DNA of 64,000 nucleotides from NCBI GenBank assembly GCA_023515795.1, contig JALGPX010000033.1:18626-82625 (forward strand), given 5' to 3'. The notes below the pieces were generated by a model that saw only the letters and a list, made by a program, of their open reading frames with translations, was not told where the DNA came from and did no database searches. Origin of the DNA: Amoeboaphelidium occidentale. Taxonomy: Eukaryota > Aphelidiomycota > Aphelidea. The position numbers and the translations under genes are program-made. Each line of letters starts with the position of its first letter. The first letter of the stretch is position 1. Below, piece by piece: positions 34,836 to 44,645 of this stretch.

Positions 34836-36612
34836 TCAATGTCTAAGCTCTTGTAAAACTTCTGCGACTTGATGAAGACCTTCTTTATCAGAAAAATAAA
34901 TCGAGTCTTTGATAGCCTTCTTATAATGGGGTTCTAAATTCTTGATAGAGCCCTCTGCAACCTGTTTGAGTAATTCGTTTCTGTGTCCTTTTAAGACTGC
35001 TTTACCTTCATAAGCCATTTCCATAAAAAATGTCGCGTAGTCTTTTACATACTGCTTTTGCTTCTCTTCTGCAGATTTTGAGAATAGCCACGAAGCTTGG
35101 CTTTTGAACCAGTACCATGTTCTGTAAAACACAGATCTTTGAGAATTGACTTCCTTGTTCAACTTTGATAATACGTAATCCAGTAAAGCCATTGAAAAAG
35201 GATCATTCTTGATACTTTTGTAGCTTTCTGCGATATGTTTCTTTAATTGCTCAGGACTCTTCGTTGCCATATCTCCTAACTTACTGAAAGCCTTCTTCAG
35301 CACACCAACAAACTTTTGCGATTCTTGCTCTGCAAGAGGTTTTATCATAGATTCAGATGCAGAAAGGTACTGCATAATGTTATTTGTGACGTCTTCAAGA
35401 GACATTTCACTCTCTGCTAAAGTGGTCGCTGAGTTCGCGTTGGCTCCTAGCATTGCTTGTTCAGTGTTTGCCTGCTTTCCTGCGGCTACTTTAAAATCAC
35501 TCAAAGCAGCAATCATTGCCAGTTTTTCGAAGCTTATCAGATGAAATAAAGAGCTTTGAGGAGCCAGCTCTGCAAAAACAACTTCAGGCAAGTAAATTTC
35601 CCCTGAACTCTTGGTAATCTTATCTGCGTACTCTTGGTTCTTCGAAATGAGAGGCGATCTGTGGAAACGCGACATGCGGAATGAACATGCCTGCTCTCTT
35701 TTGCATACCATTTCTTGCACCTTAAAAAACCTAGATGCGAATGTTGCTAATTCTTTGTAAGGGCCTGTTTGTAGAACCTTATTCGTTTCAATCGCTCCAG
35801 AATCTTTCATGTAAGCTGCAATTGTGAAGAATCTCGCTCTTGCCTTGTCTTTCGGTATTTTTGAAACAATATCAATACAGCGACGGTCGTCGCTGCATTC
35901 TTTTTCCAAGACTGGCAAATAATCCAACATATTGAATTCTTTCGTGCAGTGCTTTCCCTCAGCTTCAACGGTATTCCCAACATGGAGACCATAATAACAT
36001 ACTTTTCTAGATTCTTCAACCAACTTATCGTAGTAAGTAGCAAACTTTGCGGTGCTAAGCAAGAATTTTCGAGTACTATCTTTTTCTGTTCTGTAGTTGA
36101 ACAAACCCAAATTACGCGAGGCACGAGTGTTTCTTAGTTTCATCGGGTACACTGATATGAACATCATTTGAGGCGCATTCAAGGTCTTGTCCCGCAAGAA
36201 CTCCTGATAAGTCGCCTCCAAATACACGAGCTCTCTCATAATATCCTGAAACTCTGCCAAACCGTTCGCATCAAGTTTCGCAGCAATATCATCAGATGAT
36301 GTTGTCATTATTTCATCAGTATCTTCTCGGATCAAGTCTTTGTATTTATCATAGTCTTCAACGTGTATGTTATACGCAAGATGCTCCCATGACTTGTGTT
36401 TCTCCATCTTCTTGAGCATATGAGATAGAATATTATCATAAGTGCCTCTTACAGAAAATGCATCAGATCCAACTAAGCAATTAGTCTTTGATATTTGACA
36501 AGATTGTGATTTTACCCGAATAAAACTCGCTCGAGCTGCGACTGTTGCTCAATACCAGAGTGAAGCCACAGATGACGAATACCAAGAAGATTTTATCTAA
36601 CGCGCAGACCAT
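34836..36612 (-). CDS. Large secreted protein of unknown family, 577 aa
   Basis: Exons 36516-36612 and 34836-36472 with a 43-nt intron (36473-36515). The first exon encodes a clear signal peptide (MVCALDKIFLVFVICGFTLVLS), which the large ORF alone would miss. The mature part is mostly helical, Lys/Glu-rich, with a few Cys in the first half (VCYYG, KHCTKEF, KECSDDRRC) that could pair, and a Trp/Tyr-rich patch (VFYRTWYWFKSQASWLF) near residue 490. No C-terminal anchor. I recognise no domain. Secretion into the ER or outside is inferred from the leader. Confidence 0.65.
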
Positions 36613-37243: not shown

Positions 37244-37322
37244 ATAGAAACTGTGAGGTCACATGGAAGAGCATATGGTGTGCAAAGCCCCTTTTAACAC
37301 TTTTGATCAGAATCACCACATA

Positions 37323-37877
37323 ATGATACTTAACACCTTGCCAATAATGATATTCATTTGCCTACTACTTCAAATATGCCTCAACGTTGTTGCAGCGAAA
37401 GATACTTCATCCATGGGAAATATACAGATTATACGTCCTGTCCAAAATACCGTGATGGTTGCTACTCAACGACTATACGTCGAGTACAGAGTCAGCTCGC
37501 CTTTGAAGAACACGAAAGTGCAATTGACTTTATTCAGAAGATCATGGCGTGGGAAAAAGGTGAAGATTATGGAATTTGAACCGCTGGATTCCGGTGTTCA
37601 GAAGCATTACTTGGATACGATTGATATGAAGACAAGTTTTGATTACTTTCTATTCGCCACGCTCATTGACGCTGATGGTAAAGAAGTCCCAAACAGCGAG
37701 ACGCAAAGTCCTGCCTTCTCAATTTATTCAACAGTGGACGCAAAGCGACATGGATTTCCTGTCAATGAACCACGACCATATCAATTGTTTGATAGTGGAG
37801 CGTCTCTCAGTTACTCCCAGGGCATCTTAACGGGCTTGGGTGCAGCGCTTTCATTTAGCTTTTATGCGCTTGTTTAA
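37323..37877 (+). CDS. Secreted Kre9/Knh1-like GPI-anchored protein, 184 aa
   Basis: The second ATG (37323) gives a good signal peptide (MILNTLPIMIFICLLLQICL...A, cleavage near residue 25); the ATG at 37263 would add 20 residues that spoil it. The mature domain begins IQIIRPVQNTVMVATQRLYVEYRV, resembling the Ig-like Kre9/Knh repeat (I-x-P-x-x-G/N-T...V-x-Y-x-V) of fungal Ser/Thr-rich wall proteins. The C terminus SQGILTGLGAALSFSFYALV fits a GPI signal. Function in wall or surface glycan assembly is inferred from the family. Confidence 0.5.
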   Translation: MILNTLPIMIFICLLLQICLNVVAAKDTSSMGNIQIIRPVQNTVMVATQRLYVEYRVSSPLKNTKVQLTLFRRSWRGKKVKIMEFEPLDSGVQKHYLDTIDMKTSFDYFLFATLIDADGKEVPNSETQSPAFSIYSTVDAKRHGFPVNEPRPYQLFDSGASLSYSQGILTGLGAALSFSFYALV

Positions 37878-37888
37878 TAGATTAAACT

Positions 37889-40395
37889 TTATTTTGCCGA
37901 CTTCAACAACTTCGATATCAGCATTGCGAGACTGAAAGTATCACCAGCCTTTAGAGCTTCCAAAGTCTTAAATTTGACAACATCACCTCTCAAGGCCCTG
38001 AATACTTCAGGAGCAACAAAGTTTGCGCTCTTAGCATCAATTCGATATAAAGGAAAAGCAATTGTAGCATCCTCATCAGTGAAACATTGCTGCAAACATC
38101 CAAACCCAGATAAGTACCCAGTGATAGATCCCACGGAGTTCCTCTCAATGTAAACGTTTCTCAGTTTTACAGTGCGATGGACATATCCGTTATCATGGAG
38201 ATCCTTGAGAGCGTTAGCAACATTTGTAATAATGTTGTGCAGATCAGATGATTTCATCGGGGATACTCCACTCTGTGAAAGATACGTTTCTAAAGTACCT
38301 AATGAGTAGTAAGGAAAAATAATCGTGAATGGATTAATTGAAAAATGTAGCATTTGAACGATGCCTTTTGAGCTTGAAAGGGCCGACAATACTTCGACCT
38401 CCTCCCAGAAGGAATCCTCAACTCCAGCTTGAAGTTTGTTCATAGATGATCCAAAAACTTTAACAGTGACCTTATCGACCGATCCGTCATGTTTCTTAAG
38501 TAAACCATTGAACAAAGGAACACCATTTTGAGTACCAATTTGATTAATAACATCGATGAGTTGACCATCAATTTTCAAAGTTTGAGGAGCGTTGTCCTTG
38601 GCCTTTTGCACACTAACAGAACTGTACTTCACTAAAGGAGTAGGCACATTGATGGCACTGAATTTGTCCGAGTTGCTGGAATTCATTGTCGCCTGATCTG
38701 GTTTGCTAACATCAGCTGTGGTACCCTGAGTATCCTGTGGTGTTGCAGCAAATATCGCCTCCTTCAAGCTTTGTCTTCGAATATACTGTAAGAGAATTAG
38801 GACCAGAACTACAACTAAAAGAGATGCGCCACCAGCAATTCCAATAATCGCCCCAGAAGGAAGACTTTGCTCAGTCACAGGTTCTTCCGCAGCAAACAGC
38901 GTTCTTGTTCCTTGTTGGATTGATGTTGCTGCTTGAGTAGTCGTCGACGAAGTTACTTCGACCTCGTCCTGCATTAATTCTGGATCTTCTACATCGTCTT
39001 CAAATAGCCAAAAATCGTTCATGATCGCAGAATCGGCCTTAAACCCCCCATGAAAATACATGATTTTTGTTTCATTGTTGTAAATATATCCAGCGTTAGA
39101 CTTGGCTGGCGGATAATTAGAGCTTGATACGGAACCTAGTATAAGCAGTTAAAAAAAGCAATTCTTACCTTTGTTTCCGTAAGATCCTTGTCCGTTTGGC
39201 TGCGTGCTTCCACCAACCCATGCAAACTTAAAATACTCTAAGCTGAATACCCACAAATCACTCATGTATGCACGAGTAGAGCCTCTGATGGACAGGCCTC
39301 CCATAAGATATAGCCTCTTCTTCTCTGTATTCACGTAAAGAACACCTCCAAGCCTTCCCCGAGGAACAGCCAATGATGTATAAGTATTTCTAGGCGGAAT
39401 CCTACCTAAAGAGCCTATTTCTCGTGTTCCTCCTATCCAAGTCCAGGTGGTATTCGATAAATTGAAACACCAAACATCATTCAACACTCCTTCGCCCAAA
39501 AACGTTATTCCTTCCCCGCCAAACATGAACAAAGCCCTTTCATTAACGTCGTAAGTGAAACAACTTTGCACTCTTCCTCCTGGATAATTTTCTGCAGCAC
39601 TTTCGCGTACTTTTCCGTACTTGCCAGCAGAGTTTTTGACACCAGGACCGTGAATCCATGTCCAATTTCCAGATGTCACGTTGTAAACCCATGTGTCAGA
39701 AAGGCGCAATATATCACTGGACTGAGGTTCATAAGTTGCTCCACCCCAGAAGTAAAACGACCTGGTGTCAGGATCATAAAAGTGGACAAAGCCATGCACA
39801 GCAGGCGGCTCATTTGTTGTAGCGGGGACGTTTTGAATTCCATAGTTGCCTTGAAAATTCGTAGCAATAGTTCCTCCAACGTAGGTGTAGAATAGTGACT
39901 GAAAGTTGAAAGAAAATATCGTATTTGTGACAATACTCCTCGAGAAAAGACCACCAAATATGAACATGTTTCCGGTGGTTCTATCAATGAAGCTTCCATG
40001 CTGAGTACGACCACCAGGTTGCACTGAGAAGTGAGGGTTTCCTCTTCTGACTGCATTCATCGGTGCACTAAAACCTGTCCCATCACCTCCGTACCAAGTA
40101 TAATGATAGTTGGTTAGATCAAAAGACCACATGTTGTTGGAGTAAGATCCAGTTTCACCTGCATAACCTCCGAACCAATAGATCCTCTTCTTGTAGTAGA
40201 TCATATCATGGTCCGTTAACCCGGTAGTGTACAGATCTGGACTGCTTACATTCCTGGTACCTGAAGGTCAAAAGGCTTATGATATATATTACCGAATTCT
40301 CCATACGTTGCGGCTGGCGAAGATTGCCCTGATATCCAAACGAATGCCGTATTCACAGTGGAACAAAATGCAATGAGAAGGATGAATAAGAACAT
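37889..40395 (-). CDS. Kelch-repeat receptor with intracellular pseudokinase domain, 813 aa
   Basis: Exons 40293-40395, 39169-40260 and 37889-39135; introns of 32 nt (40261-40292) and 33 nt (39136-39168), frames consistent. Signal peptide (MFLFILLIAFCSTVNT), then about six kelch blades to residue ~445 (YWFGGYAGETGSYSNNMWSF, FIFGGLFS, FYFWGGATYE, LFMFGGEG, LYLMGGLS, MYFHGG), an acidic Thr-rich stalk, a TM helix at about 493-515 with stop-transfer RRQ, and a kinase fold at about 593-811. There the beta3 Lys (VTVKVFG, ~624) and APE (~773) remain, but HRD is HRT and DFG is SGFG, so both catalytic Asp are lost. The gene ends soon after APE and helix F, so the C-lobe is short. It follows the MAP3K gene on the same strand (99 nt). 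Confidence 0.8.
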
Positions 40396-40494: not shown

Positions 40495-43400
40495 CTATGG
40501 CGGTGTATTGTCAGTGTTAGAACCTCCTAGAGTTGCTCCACTGAAATAAGAGCCAAGCAGTTCTCGTGTTCCTATACCGACATTTACGCTTGTTAATGAA
40601 TTGAATGAGAAACCAGGCGAATAGAGTCCTGTGATAAATCCAGACCATGCATTAGGGAAGGATGATTTGTTATTCATGCGGTATTCAGCAAGCTTCTGTT
40701 CCAGCTCTTCAAACCAAGGATCAAAAAGAAGCTGCGAGGCAGTGGCTCTTTTATCTGCTGGTTTAAAACACTTTTCCAAAAAGTCGCTACATTTTTTAGA
40801 TACAGTGACCGTGAACGATGTAATATTCTCATCTGATGATGATTGCGTTTCAGAAATACTTGCTCTTGTAGAATTAGATGCAGCTTGCGGGCTGGCCAAA
40901 TGAATATTGAAATTATTGCTGCTATCAGAACCGTTAGCACTAACAGGAGGAATAGGCGGGTGTTGATTAGATATACCGATCTGGTACATAATTGCCCAGT
41001 CATTATCTAAATGGGACCACGGACGTTTCCCAGTAATCATCTCCAAAACCACACAAGCAGCACTCCATACATCTTGCGAACCAATTGGAGCTGAGCTTTT
41101 CTGTCCGTTAATTATCTCAGGCGCCATATAATTCGGAGTTCCAACTAAACTGTTCTTATTGTTCTTGTTCAAAGTGCCTTGATTAACGATCATCTTGGCG
41201 GCACCGAAATCGACCAACTTGATAGTTCCCGATTTATCTAGAAGGATGTTATCAGGTTTGATATCTCTGTGGACAATATCCTAAAAGATCAATCAAATTA
41301 AAAAGTAAATAACCTTTGAATGTAGATACTGCAGCCCATTGTAAAGTTGATAAGAATAAAGCTGGATAATCGATTCATTTTCTATGCGGCCATTTTCCAA
41401 TAGAGACGAAAGAGATCCACCAGAGCAAAACTCCATGAATATGTAGCATTTATCTCTGTGAAGTTCGACGCCATAATAGTTAACAATATTGGGATGGTTT
41501 AGAACTTCAAGGACTTTCATTTCTTCCTTGATGGATAGAATCATTTTAGAGGAAGCGTTCGACTGAAACTTGATTTCTTTTACGGCCATAAGATCGCCAG
41601 ATTCAAGATTAATTCCAACATACACCGATCCGAAAGTTCCGCCTCCAATAAACTTGCCTTGTTGCCATCTCATAGAGACTTTCGAATTAGATACTTTTAA
41701 CAAAAGATTAAGATTCTGATTAGCAGGCTCAGTATGGTCGATGATTTTTCCAATTCTCTTCTGTTGAGAAGCTTTCACGTCCAATACTTTATCTATATTG
41801 AGAACTTTTTGCAGTCTCATCTCAGCAAGTTTAGCAACATCCTCCGGAGTTAACGACTCTGTCACTTTCTCATTCTTCTTTTTCGACATACCATGATCAA
41901 GATGCTCTGCAGAATTGAGGCCTCCAATGATTAATGCCATACAACAAGCAACTTTTCTTTTAATGTCCAAGAAAGCTTCATTGGATAACACCAAGATGTT
42001 GTTGCCTTTGATAACCCACATGACAAACTCAAGTGCCAATAGAGCCCATCTTACAGTTTTCGGATCCGTTGGCAAACAGTCAGAACATGTAAAAGAAATC
42101 CACTCAATAGCCAATTGTAACAAATGTCTTGTCAATATTACTCTTAGTGGTTGCGGTAAACACGATAACGCTATCTTGCCAAATGATGAAGCAAAGGTAA
42201 AATACTCCTCGACTAAATCTACAGGTAACAGCATTCTTCTGATGTTCTTTACGCCTTGAACCAAAATGACGGCTGTCTTAAGAACTGTTTTCTCCATTCT
42301 CAGCAACCATGATTCTACCCTCTTATTAGCTGAACATTTATCAAAGACAAAAGAAGTTTCATGGTATTTTTTCTTGAGAAACTCTCTGAAAGCATCAAAG
42401 CCGTTGTCGCTTGTTCCAGTTATCATAATCTGATTTTTAGAGAGCAACTTTGGATATGTCGCAGCGCAATTTCTTGAGTTCCACAAACTTTGTTTCGTAG
42501 TCAAAAATGAAGCAAAATATTGCTTATCTTCAACTGAAACTCTCGTTGTGACCATGAAAACGGCCGGTGGCGACTCAGCTCTGGGTTTGGATGTTTTTGA
42601 ATCCAAATCTTGTTCAAGAATGTACTCGACAAAGGATGGAAACGATGATTCATTGCATGAAATCAGTAAAGATTCTTCGAGCTCTTCTTTAAGCTGTCTC
42701 GCGTATTGTAACACTTTGCGGGATCTGATACGAACGTTAAACAAAAGCCTTGTGAACCACTTTTCGCGACTAGCATTCTTATCGGATTTCGTGGGATCAT
42801 TAATTCTGATCGATTGCTGATAATAGAAAAGCAACGATTCAAAAAGTTTCTCAGTCATGAAGCAAAACTTTTCTGCAGCAAGTGTTCTCAGTTCCTGAAA
42901 ATCTTTAGCTTTAGAGTAAACATTCTTCTGCAGGAAATCCCATTCCTTCTCTAAGAGCTCGGCATTTCTAAACCAAAGCTGTTGATTCTTGCTGGAAGAT
43001 AACTTTCGTTCAAGAATTTTTAAATACAGCCTAACGCCTTGGACTATTGTTTCATTATCAAGAATATTTTCGTTATTGCTGCCTAGAGCACTGAGAAGTC
43101 TCCTGTAGTTCTGACGAGTGTCGAGTGCTGACTGAATGCAAACCTTGTAATCTTCCAACAAAGCATCCAAGTCCATCGTGATCTCGTCAGATCCCGCACT
43201 TGATGTCTTTTTCTTTGGACTTTCGGTTTCCGAGGGTTCGCCAGCGTTCTCACTTTTTACCCACCACGTTACACATTTTTTGATTATTTGGCCAGGGAAA
43301 GATCCGACAAGAAGTAAATCATCTTCAAATATAGGGAGCCCTAATTTTTTTGAATCTTCAGAGTAAAGAAGCTGAAGTGAAGCGATAGCTTTATCGACCA

Positions 43401-44645
43401 TGAGATTAACAGCGGCAATAACGCTGTGATTCGTGAATAACTTTGGAAGTCCTCCTTCTTTCAAAACAGATTCAATAAACTCATCAGGTAAATCAGCTGC
43501 TAAATCTTTAACATTAGCCCACTTCTTTACTATTTCATGTAACTGTCGTATCGTTTCAAAGAGCGAATTCCAAGTCCGCATGATGTCTAATCTGCGTTGA
43601 ATAGTTTCGAACACCGGCTGATCAACACAAAGCTTCTTGTAAGAAGGATACATCGACTCCACAGCGTCGACCAAATGAAGAATACCTTTTAATTGCTCAT
43701 TAAATGCTGTGAAATCACCGTTGAAATTTCCTTGAAAAGTCACGACAGCAGAAACCGCATCGTTAACAAAGTCGCTTCTCAAAGCACTTAACCATGCAGG
43801 AACTAAAGCTATCGGCTGAGAATATAAATTTCCAATTATCCCGAAGTATAAATGGTCCCTGAACTTCTGGTGCTCCACGGAATCTTGAACAGAATGATTC
43901 TGTATGCGACGCTTCTCCACAGCAACGTCTTCACCGGTCAAGTAACTTGTTAACAGTCTTTGCCATTCTAAGCGCGCATCTGCATCGGCTACAGAGCTGA
44001 ATGGAAGCAAAATGCTTTTCACGCCAATCTCCTCAGACAATCCAGATTTATCCTCATTCTCCCCGTCCAGCGCATCCTCAGAGGTTGTAACATAAAACTT
44101 CTTATCGAATTCAACAAAATCTTTATCATTGGAAGATATTGCTAATGAAGGCGTCGCCATGTCCGTAGCTGATTCTTCCCCAAACTCAAATCCACTTCGC
44201 TCGACATACGGTGTCACATTAGAAGACTGTAACCCAGAAATGCTCTTCTCAGATCCCGGACTTAAAGAAAGCCTGTGCACATTCAGAGAGCTGTCGAGGC
44301 CTAAAGCATGAGATTGCAACTTAATTAAAGATTACCAGCACTCGATCTTGTGAAAGTAGCTTGCCAGATGAACGATTCTGACACAACCGGAACCCCGAAA
44401 TCTATGGCTTCTCTTATGCTCATACTATTCTTCTTAGACTCTTCGGGTGTAGTAACCACATAAGTAGTTTCAGACGTAAGATTATGCGTTACGGTACCTC
44501 CAAAAGATTCTATAACCATTTTGATGTCCTTCGCCTTATCATTGTCAAAGCCAAGAACGTAGAATATTTTCCCTTGAAACAGAACGTTTTCTTCCTGCTT
44601 AGGCAGCGAAATGAAGTGCATTTGGCCCGAGTCCTTTGACGTCAT
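40495..44645 (-). CDS. SSK2/MEKK4-type MAP kinase kinase kinase with N-terminal BRCT domain, 1360 aa
   Basis: Exons 44336-44645, 41314-44300 and 40495-41280; introns of 35 nt (44301-44335) and 33 nt (41281-41313). The kinase domain (about 980-1300) is SSK2/MEKK4-like: FIGGGTFGSVYVG, AVKEI (Lys1011), EEMKVLEVLNHPNIVNYYGV, HRDIKPDN, VDFGAAK, GTPNYMAPE, VVLEMITGKRPWSHLDNDWA. The long central region is helical, as in that family (stress/HOG signalling). Exon 1 encodes a BRCT domain (about 20-97: LFQGKIFYVLG, ESFGGTVTHNLTSETTYVV, VPVVSESFIW). The phases add to an uninterrupted frame, and exon 2 has no ATG near its start, so I read one gene. Unspliced, the BRCT part would stop at 107 aa. Confidence 0.8.

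Follow-up and report, generated by a model that had tools for sequence, protein, structure and literature searches.

Protein kinases are normally held to need the entire C-terminal lobe (C-lobe) of their fold, and ErbB3 is a receptor pseudokinase. To our knowledge, the kinase domains of ErbB3, EphB6, IRAK2 and IRAK3 are full length and carry no kelch ectodomain, and we know of no kinase in the kelch proteins Attractin/LZTR1 and KLHDC2. EphB6 is described as a receptor pseudokinase (PMC8347583) and IRAK2 as having Asn at the position of the catalytic Asp (PMC7955167), while RIO kinases are presented as a trimmed kinase fold in which most of the peptide-substrate surface is missing (PMC3358306). 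The present gene belongs to Amoeboaphelidium occidentale, described as an aphelid parasitoid of algae (PMC10608142), and lies on the minus strand of a stretch of 64,000 nucleotides (GenBank assembly GCA_023515795.1, contig JALGPX010000033.1, positions 18,626 to 82,625; hereafter the window). Its product is a probable cell-surface kelch receptor with a kinase-fold domain that looks catalytically dead and that ends shortly after helix alphaF, an end point which, judging from the sequences, it shares with a large family of catalytically intact relatives.

The product resembles IRAK2/IRAK3 and the receptor pseudokinases in being without the catalytic Asp and in having an altered Mg-binding motif. 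Its family resembles the RIO kinases in having a trimmed kinase fold, but RIO kinases are without the activation/APE loop, which the aphelid family keeps (VAPE at residues 772-775 of the product). The Arg of the alphaH-alphaI loop usually pairs with the APE Glu, yet 118 of 121 sequences retain this Glu despite the loss of the alphaH-alphaI region by truncation. Among the best 60 of 2821 PDB matches, the top places of a family profile were taken by EGFR, JAK/TYK2 and B-Raf chains, and the product alone matched IRAK4 best (E 4e-6). The fold is predicted to be the same up to alphaF as in the TK/TKL kinases (EGFR, JAK, B-Raf, IRAK4), from which the family differs in stopping past alphaF, in its kelch or WD40 ectodomains, and in having Cys for the HRD Arg in 106 of 122 aligned sequences.

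Aphelid receptor-like protein kinases are already in print (Mikhailov et al., 2022, Curr Biol, as referred to in PMC10608142) and are probably the family described here; the family-wide end point is of more interest than the gene alone. A literature search over titles and the starts of abstracts, a scope outside which Mikhailov et al. (2022) falls, gave no account of receptors that join a kelch or WD40 head to an alphaF-ending kinase, and the words kinase, receptor, WD40 and kelch do not occur in PMC6299283.

Gene Structure and Domain Architecture

The gene model and its domains are given below, with positions in the window (TM, transmembrane). Kinase motifs and helices, in the gene and in the family, carry the names which we take to apply to them.

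40395-37889, minus strand: whole gene, three exons separated by two very short introns, 813 amino acids
40293..40395, minus strand: exon 1, encoding the signal peptide and the first part of the ectodomain (gene model; residues 1-17 hydrophobic)
40261..40292, minus strand: intron 1, 32 nucleotides, GT...AG (gene model)
39169..40260, minus strand: exon 2, kelch GG motifs 1 to 5 (PF24681, PF24981, PF13418; motif positions)
39136..39168, minus strand: intron 2, 33 nucleotides, GT...AG (gene model)
37889..39135, minus strand: exon 3, kelch motif 6, stalk, TM helix, juxtamembrane part, truncated pseudokinase and stop (gene model, predicted structure)
38780..38851, minus strand: single TM helix, residues 494-517, followed by RR (hydropathy; helix 69-105 of the predicted model)
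37892..38617, minus strand: kinase-fold domain, residues 572-813, last helix alphaF (Pfam, PDB profile match, predicted model, alignment)
38459..38461, minus strand: beta3 Lys624, kept (alignment)
38156..38179, minus strand: HRTVKLRN, Thr in place of the catalytic Asp (alignment)
38099..38113, minus strand: LSGFG, Gly in place of the DFG Asp (alignment)
37889..37942, minus strand: alphaF, from Asp797 to the chain end, then the stop, with alphaG, alphaH and alphaI absent (alignment, predicted model)

Six kelch GG motifs are located between residues 62 and 429, and the best Pfam matches of the ectodomain are kelch propeller families of the Attractin/LZTR1 and KLHDC2 type. Hydropathy, the RR past the TM helix and the position of six of the seven N-glycosylation sequons N-terminal to that helix point to a single-pass type I membrane protein. 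In the kinase part, Pfam matches begin at residue 597, with scores of 58.1 bits for PF07714 (cut-off 23.1) and 49.7 bits for PF00069 (cut-off 31.7), the latter covering only positions 20 to 192 of 263. The predicted model is bilobal, with an N-lobe sheet and alphaC and with alphaE and alphaF in the C-lobe; Lys624 and the alphaC Glu644 are retained. A complete C-lobe with alphaG-alphaI (subdomains X-XI) is absent, as the chain stops 16 residues past the alphaF Asp. The initial annotation, which had placed a signal peptide, about six kelch blades, a TM helix and a truncated kinase fold in one chain, is thus borne out with its coordinates; the alignment agrees with its reading of a kept Lys, HRD changed to HRT and DFG to SGFG, and structure prediction of the kinase part indeed returned a kinase fold up to alphaF.

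Kelch, TM and kinase parts also follow one another in a single uninterrupted open frame in three paralogues and in one chain in the database protein P0101, and on the three paralogue frames we reject the idea that the kelch and kinase parts are two separate genes. A Foldseek search with the model of the paralogue P0101, which is of low confidence overall, matched the LZTR1 kelch domain (E 7.5e-21). By Pfam and by this match, the likeness to Attractin/LZTR1 and KLHDC2 would lie in the kelch propeller.

The End Point After alphaF Is Common to the Family

Searches of the A. occidentale genome covered 11.3 Mb in 204 contigs, the published total being given as 13.56 Mb in 951 pieces (PMC10608142). 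The kinase part gave 131 matches (E <= 1e-3), the weaker of which include kinases reaching position 263 of PF00069, e.g., one on contig C186 (L denotes loci of this genome, P database proteins and C contigs of this genome). Kinase domains of 60 of its loci, under half of the 131 matches and mostly the better-scoring ones, were aligned with those of 62 database proteins (122 in all, nine of 131 extracted sequences having been removed as duplicates); the ordinary kinases L001-L008 were excluded. The distance from the alphaF Asp to the chain end was 16-35 residues in 59 of the 60 loci and 16-30 residues in all 61 database proteins reaching this column, P0060, which ends ahead of it, being excluded from the count; database proteins may be cut at contig ends, as P0005 probably is, and several come from one species. 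The residues beyond alphaF vary, and the stop codons of the 59 loci are TGA (29), TAA (25) and TAG (5). The single exception, L072, continues for 121 residues past the alphaF Asp and has a Pfam match to position 257 of 258. With L087 on C198 it represents a full-length kinase (HYD, DMG, alphaG-alphaI tail), the only one among the 60 loci, and its upstream exon contributes a TM-like stretch with hardly any ectodomain; L072 may be a signalling form that is ancestral or shared.

The last 60 residues ahead of the stop matched in 1536 of 1770 locus pairs, whereas the stretches downstream of the 60 loci (217-420 nucleotides each) matched in 24 of 1770, counted from rows, and these 24 matches come from near-duplicate loci or from neighboring genes that begin there, either a next WD40 gene or an F-box-like one. 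Since a further exon would be expected to be conserved and the downstream sequence is not, a hidden C-lobe exon past the stop is judged absent, chiefly on this difference. Splice-donor-like words within the first 60 nucleotides past the stop of 54 loci were present in few loci and at differing places. No C-lobe motif was found in the 420 nucleotides downstream of 54 loci, which counts for little because the motif also overlooked the real tail of L072. The eight best-scoring ordinary kinases of the genome all reach position 263 of PF00069, five of them unbroken from position 3 or earlier. Given the shared end point, the lack of conserved downstream coding sequence and the full length of the ordinary kinases, the truncation is, as far as sequences tell, a family trait rather than decay of this gene. 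The view that it is a peculiarity of this gene is not supported, as nearly all family members examined have it, catalytically intact ones included.

F-box-like frame starts (LPPEIL..IA..L, by eye) lie downstream of the kinase loci L045, L051, L070, L082 and L086.

Loss of Catalytic Residues in the Kelch Clade

Outside the kelch pseudokinase clade, 112 of 114 sequences (L072 included) keep the beta3 Lys, the alphaC Glu, the catalytic Asp, the Asn and the DFG Asp; of the two exceptions, the second copy in L086 has Arg in place of the Lys, and P0062 has GFG. Truncation alone is therefore not the mark of the deadness of the gene product. A kelch ectodomain is combined with intact catalytic residues in L022, L024 and L026, so that candidates for the active paralogues sought following the initial annotation do exist in the same genome, and it occurs without them in the kelch pseudokinase clade. 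The clade was counted as eight sequences, namely two near-orthologues from metagenomes and six A. occidentale genes, which lie on C74, C96 and C123; this count does not include additional members, split into exons, on C186 and C123. It had a support of 1.0 in a tree restricted to sequences of more than 200 amino acids, in which deep supports were about 0.7-0.9 and the outgroup was not monophyletic; it adjoins the rest of the family, its exact placement being weakly supported. Members are 46-49% identical to the product described here and have the clade-specific blocks TQNG, HR[NT].K and R[IV]D[AG]K[AS]AN[FY]VAPE.

Both Asps are lost in all eight members, while the Lys, the alphaC Glu and the HRD Arg are kept in all eight and the catalytic-loop Asn in seven. 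The retained Lys, Glu and Asn, like the new activities reported as gained by other kinase folds (PMC7955167), would be in keeping with an atypical enzyme that binds nucleotide via Lys624 and Glu644 and catalyses a non-canonical transfer. We regard such an enzyme as improbable, since the Asps lost throughout the clade are the Mg-holding and the substrate-acting ones, the glycine loop reads TQNG and alphaG-alphaI are absent.

Between the two near-orthologues and their A. occidentale partners, the kinase part differs at 9 of 246 and 12 of 247 residues (96.3 and 95.1% identity, respectively), and the kelch part at 11 of 445 residues in one pair and 3 of 310 in the other (97.5 and 99.0%, respectively). 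The identity of the dead domain argues against free decay, and constraint appears to act on both halves, somewhat more loosely on the dead kinase. A decoy or sink receptor, whose kelch head would compete with kelch paralogues for ligand while the dead kinase served as a stable, partnerless tail, could do with less than this 95-96% conservation and the clade-specific blocks; it finds some support in the tandem cluster on C123, where the kelch part and TM-like stretch of L019 and L020 are followed by a short repetitive tail in place of a kinase (by eye), and on balance we consider it unlikely. The same cluster, a tandem array with one interrupted member (the L013 frame contains a stop), is what a relic would predict, i.e., a clade whose function was lost along with catalysis and which persists through recent duplication. 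Three paralogues, however, have open frames of 823-834 amino acids and are only 40-41% identical to the product over nearly its full length, a divergence that disfavours recent duplication and makes the relic very improbable.

Proposed Function of the Kelch Pseudokinase

Taken together, a non-catalytic, kelch-headed receptor or co-receptor working through binding partners is the role that we consider reasonably probable. The kelch head would bind an external ligand of the zoospore or amoeba, on the host wall, on prey or on a self surface, and the dead domain would signal via binding instead of phosphorylation. The most likely route would be pairing with catalytically intact paralogues or docking of a downstream kinase, the mode of action generally assumed for receptor and IRAK pseudokinases (PMC7955167). 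Hetero-pairing is the simplest idea because many intact paralogues carry the same trimmed domain. The product may work by scaffolding or allostery. As a tentative and rather doubtful extension, aphelids may have a receptor system with about a hundred members, built on a minimal, alphaF-ending kinase module, in which intact members would be working kinases without alphaG-alphaI, kelch pseudokinases would be dedicated dead partners, and a dimer, the membrane or a partner surface would replace the lost helices.

Several points weigh against this interpretation. The full-length model of P0101 has a mean predicted local distance difference test score of only 54, and propeller closure and packing are thus only weakly supported. 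The dead domain evolves a little more quickly than the kelch part, and the clade sample is small (n = 8), its near-orthologues not being independent. A profile of ordinary kinase tails gave nothing better than E 0.08 against 544 downstream peptide pieces from 59 loci, but leave-one-out controls recovered 6 of 11 tails (four of them clearly) and missed that of L072, so that the profile is a weak test. L072 is placed among truncated members in the tree, with a support of 0.2, and a single truncation event is therefore not established. Finally, the stretches read beside the kelch paralogues singled out no signalling partner.

With the catalytic residues retained in 112 of 114 sampled sequences, nearly all of which stop past alphaF, the family offers a natural experiment on the extent of the fold that catalysis requires. 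Its lineage, a neighbor of Fungi, combines a very large receptor repertoire with a small genome of 11-14 Mb, and the probably extracellular WD40 and kelch heads of the family are unusual and are found in a parasitoid that has to recognise algal hosts. The dead kelch clade provides a defined place to study pseudokinase co-receptor function beyond animals and plants.

Size and Ectodomains of the Receptor Family

The ectodomain types in the family are WD40, kelch and, once, reprolysin/ADAM-like. With a WD40-family member as query, at least 65 loci were found in the genome (all 65 that were scored, out of 445 candidates), of which 59, including one that crosses a stop, extend to query residue 680 or 681, while six fall short. 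These loci and the 131 kinase-part matches do not support the rarity that the initial annotation ascribed to receptor-kinase architectures in fungi. Five WD40 proteins of 1114-1188 amino acids (P0024, P0040, P0052, P0063, and P0064) have a hydrophobic, signal-peptide-like start (by eye), and because of these starts the WD40 propellers are probably extracellular; some others, e.g., P0025 and P0050, are without such a start as annotated. A protein database search with the whole product returned two kelch proteins only and overlooked members present in that database, and a search with its C-terminal part returned one A. occidentale protein and two metagenome proteins; these searches scored only the 7996 and 7994 candidates, respectively, with the most shared words.

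The reprolysin/ADAM-like case, L025 with L088 on C45, has a metalloprotease part, a signal-peptide-like start and a TM-like stretch. Its cytoplasmic part resembles the pseudokinase clade (TQNG block), and the locus is interrupted by the contig end.

Neighboring Genes

One kinase gene lies close to the kelch pseudokinase gene and is, on present evidence, not part of the system:

40495..44319, minus strand: STE/MAP3K-like kinase gene (open reading frames 41293-44319 and 40495-41217), 99 nucleotides upstream of the kelch pseudokinase gene

The shared strand and the gap of 99 nucleotides had led the initial annotation to regard the MAP3K as a suggestive neighbor, and would suit a functional pair of co-regulated receptor and kinase. 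Similar short gaps are ordinary in the window, e.g., between convergent open reading frames whose ends are 39 and 92 nucleotides apart (28347/28387 and 54297/54390, respectively). Next to the kelch paralogues on C96 and C186, no MAP3K-like gene was present in the sequence read, one side only at length; by our reading it holds CDK-like kinases about 4 kb off, a proximity noticed after the fact, and an LKB1-like kinase about 7 kb off. Among the kinase matches listed, C123 had only a receptor-family kinase. The adjacency of the MAP3K looks coincidental from these neighborhoods, and we give a functional pair very little credence.

On the other side, a convergent gene on the plus strand (37263-37877) ends 11 nucleotides from the end of the kelch pseudokinase gene and encodes 204 amino acids without a Pfam family; its product has a hydrophobic N-terminal region and a hydrophobic C-terminus that, by eye, resembles a glycosylphosphatidylinositol-anchor signal. 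An open reading frame of 527 amino acids on the minus strand (34836-36419) had no Pfam match at E 0.001.
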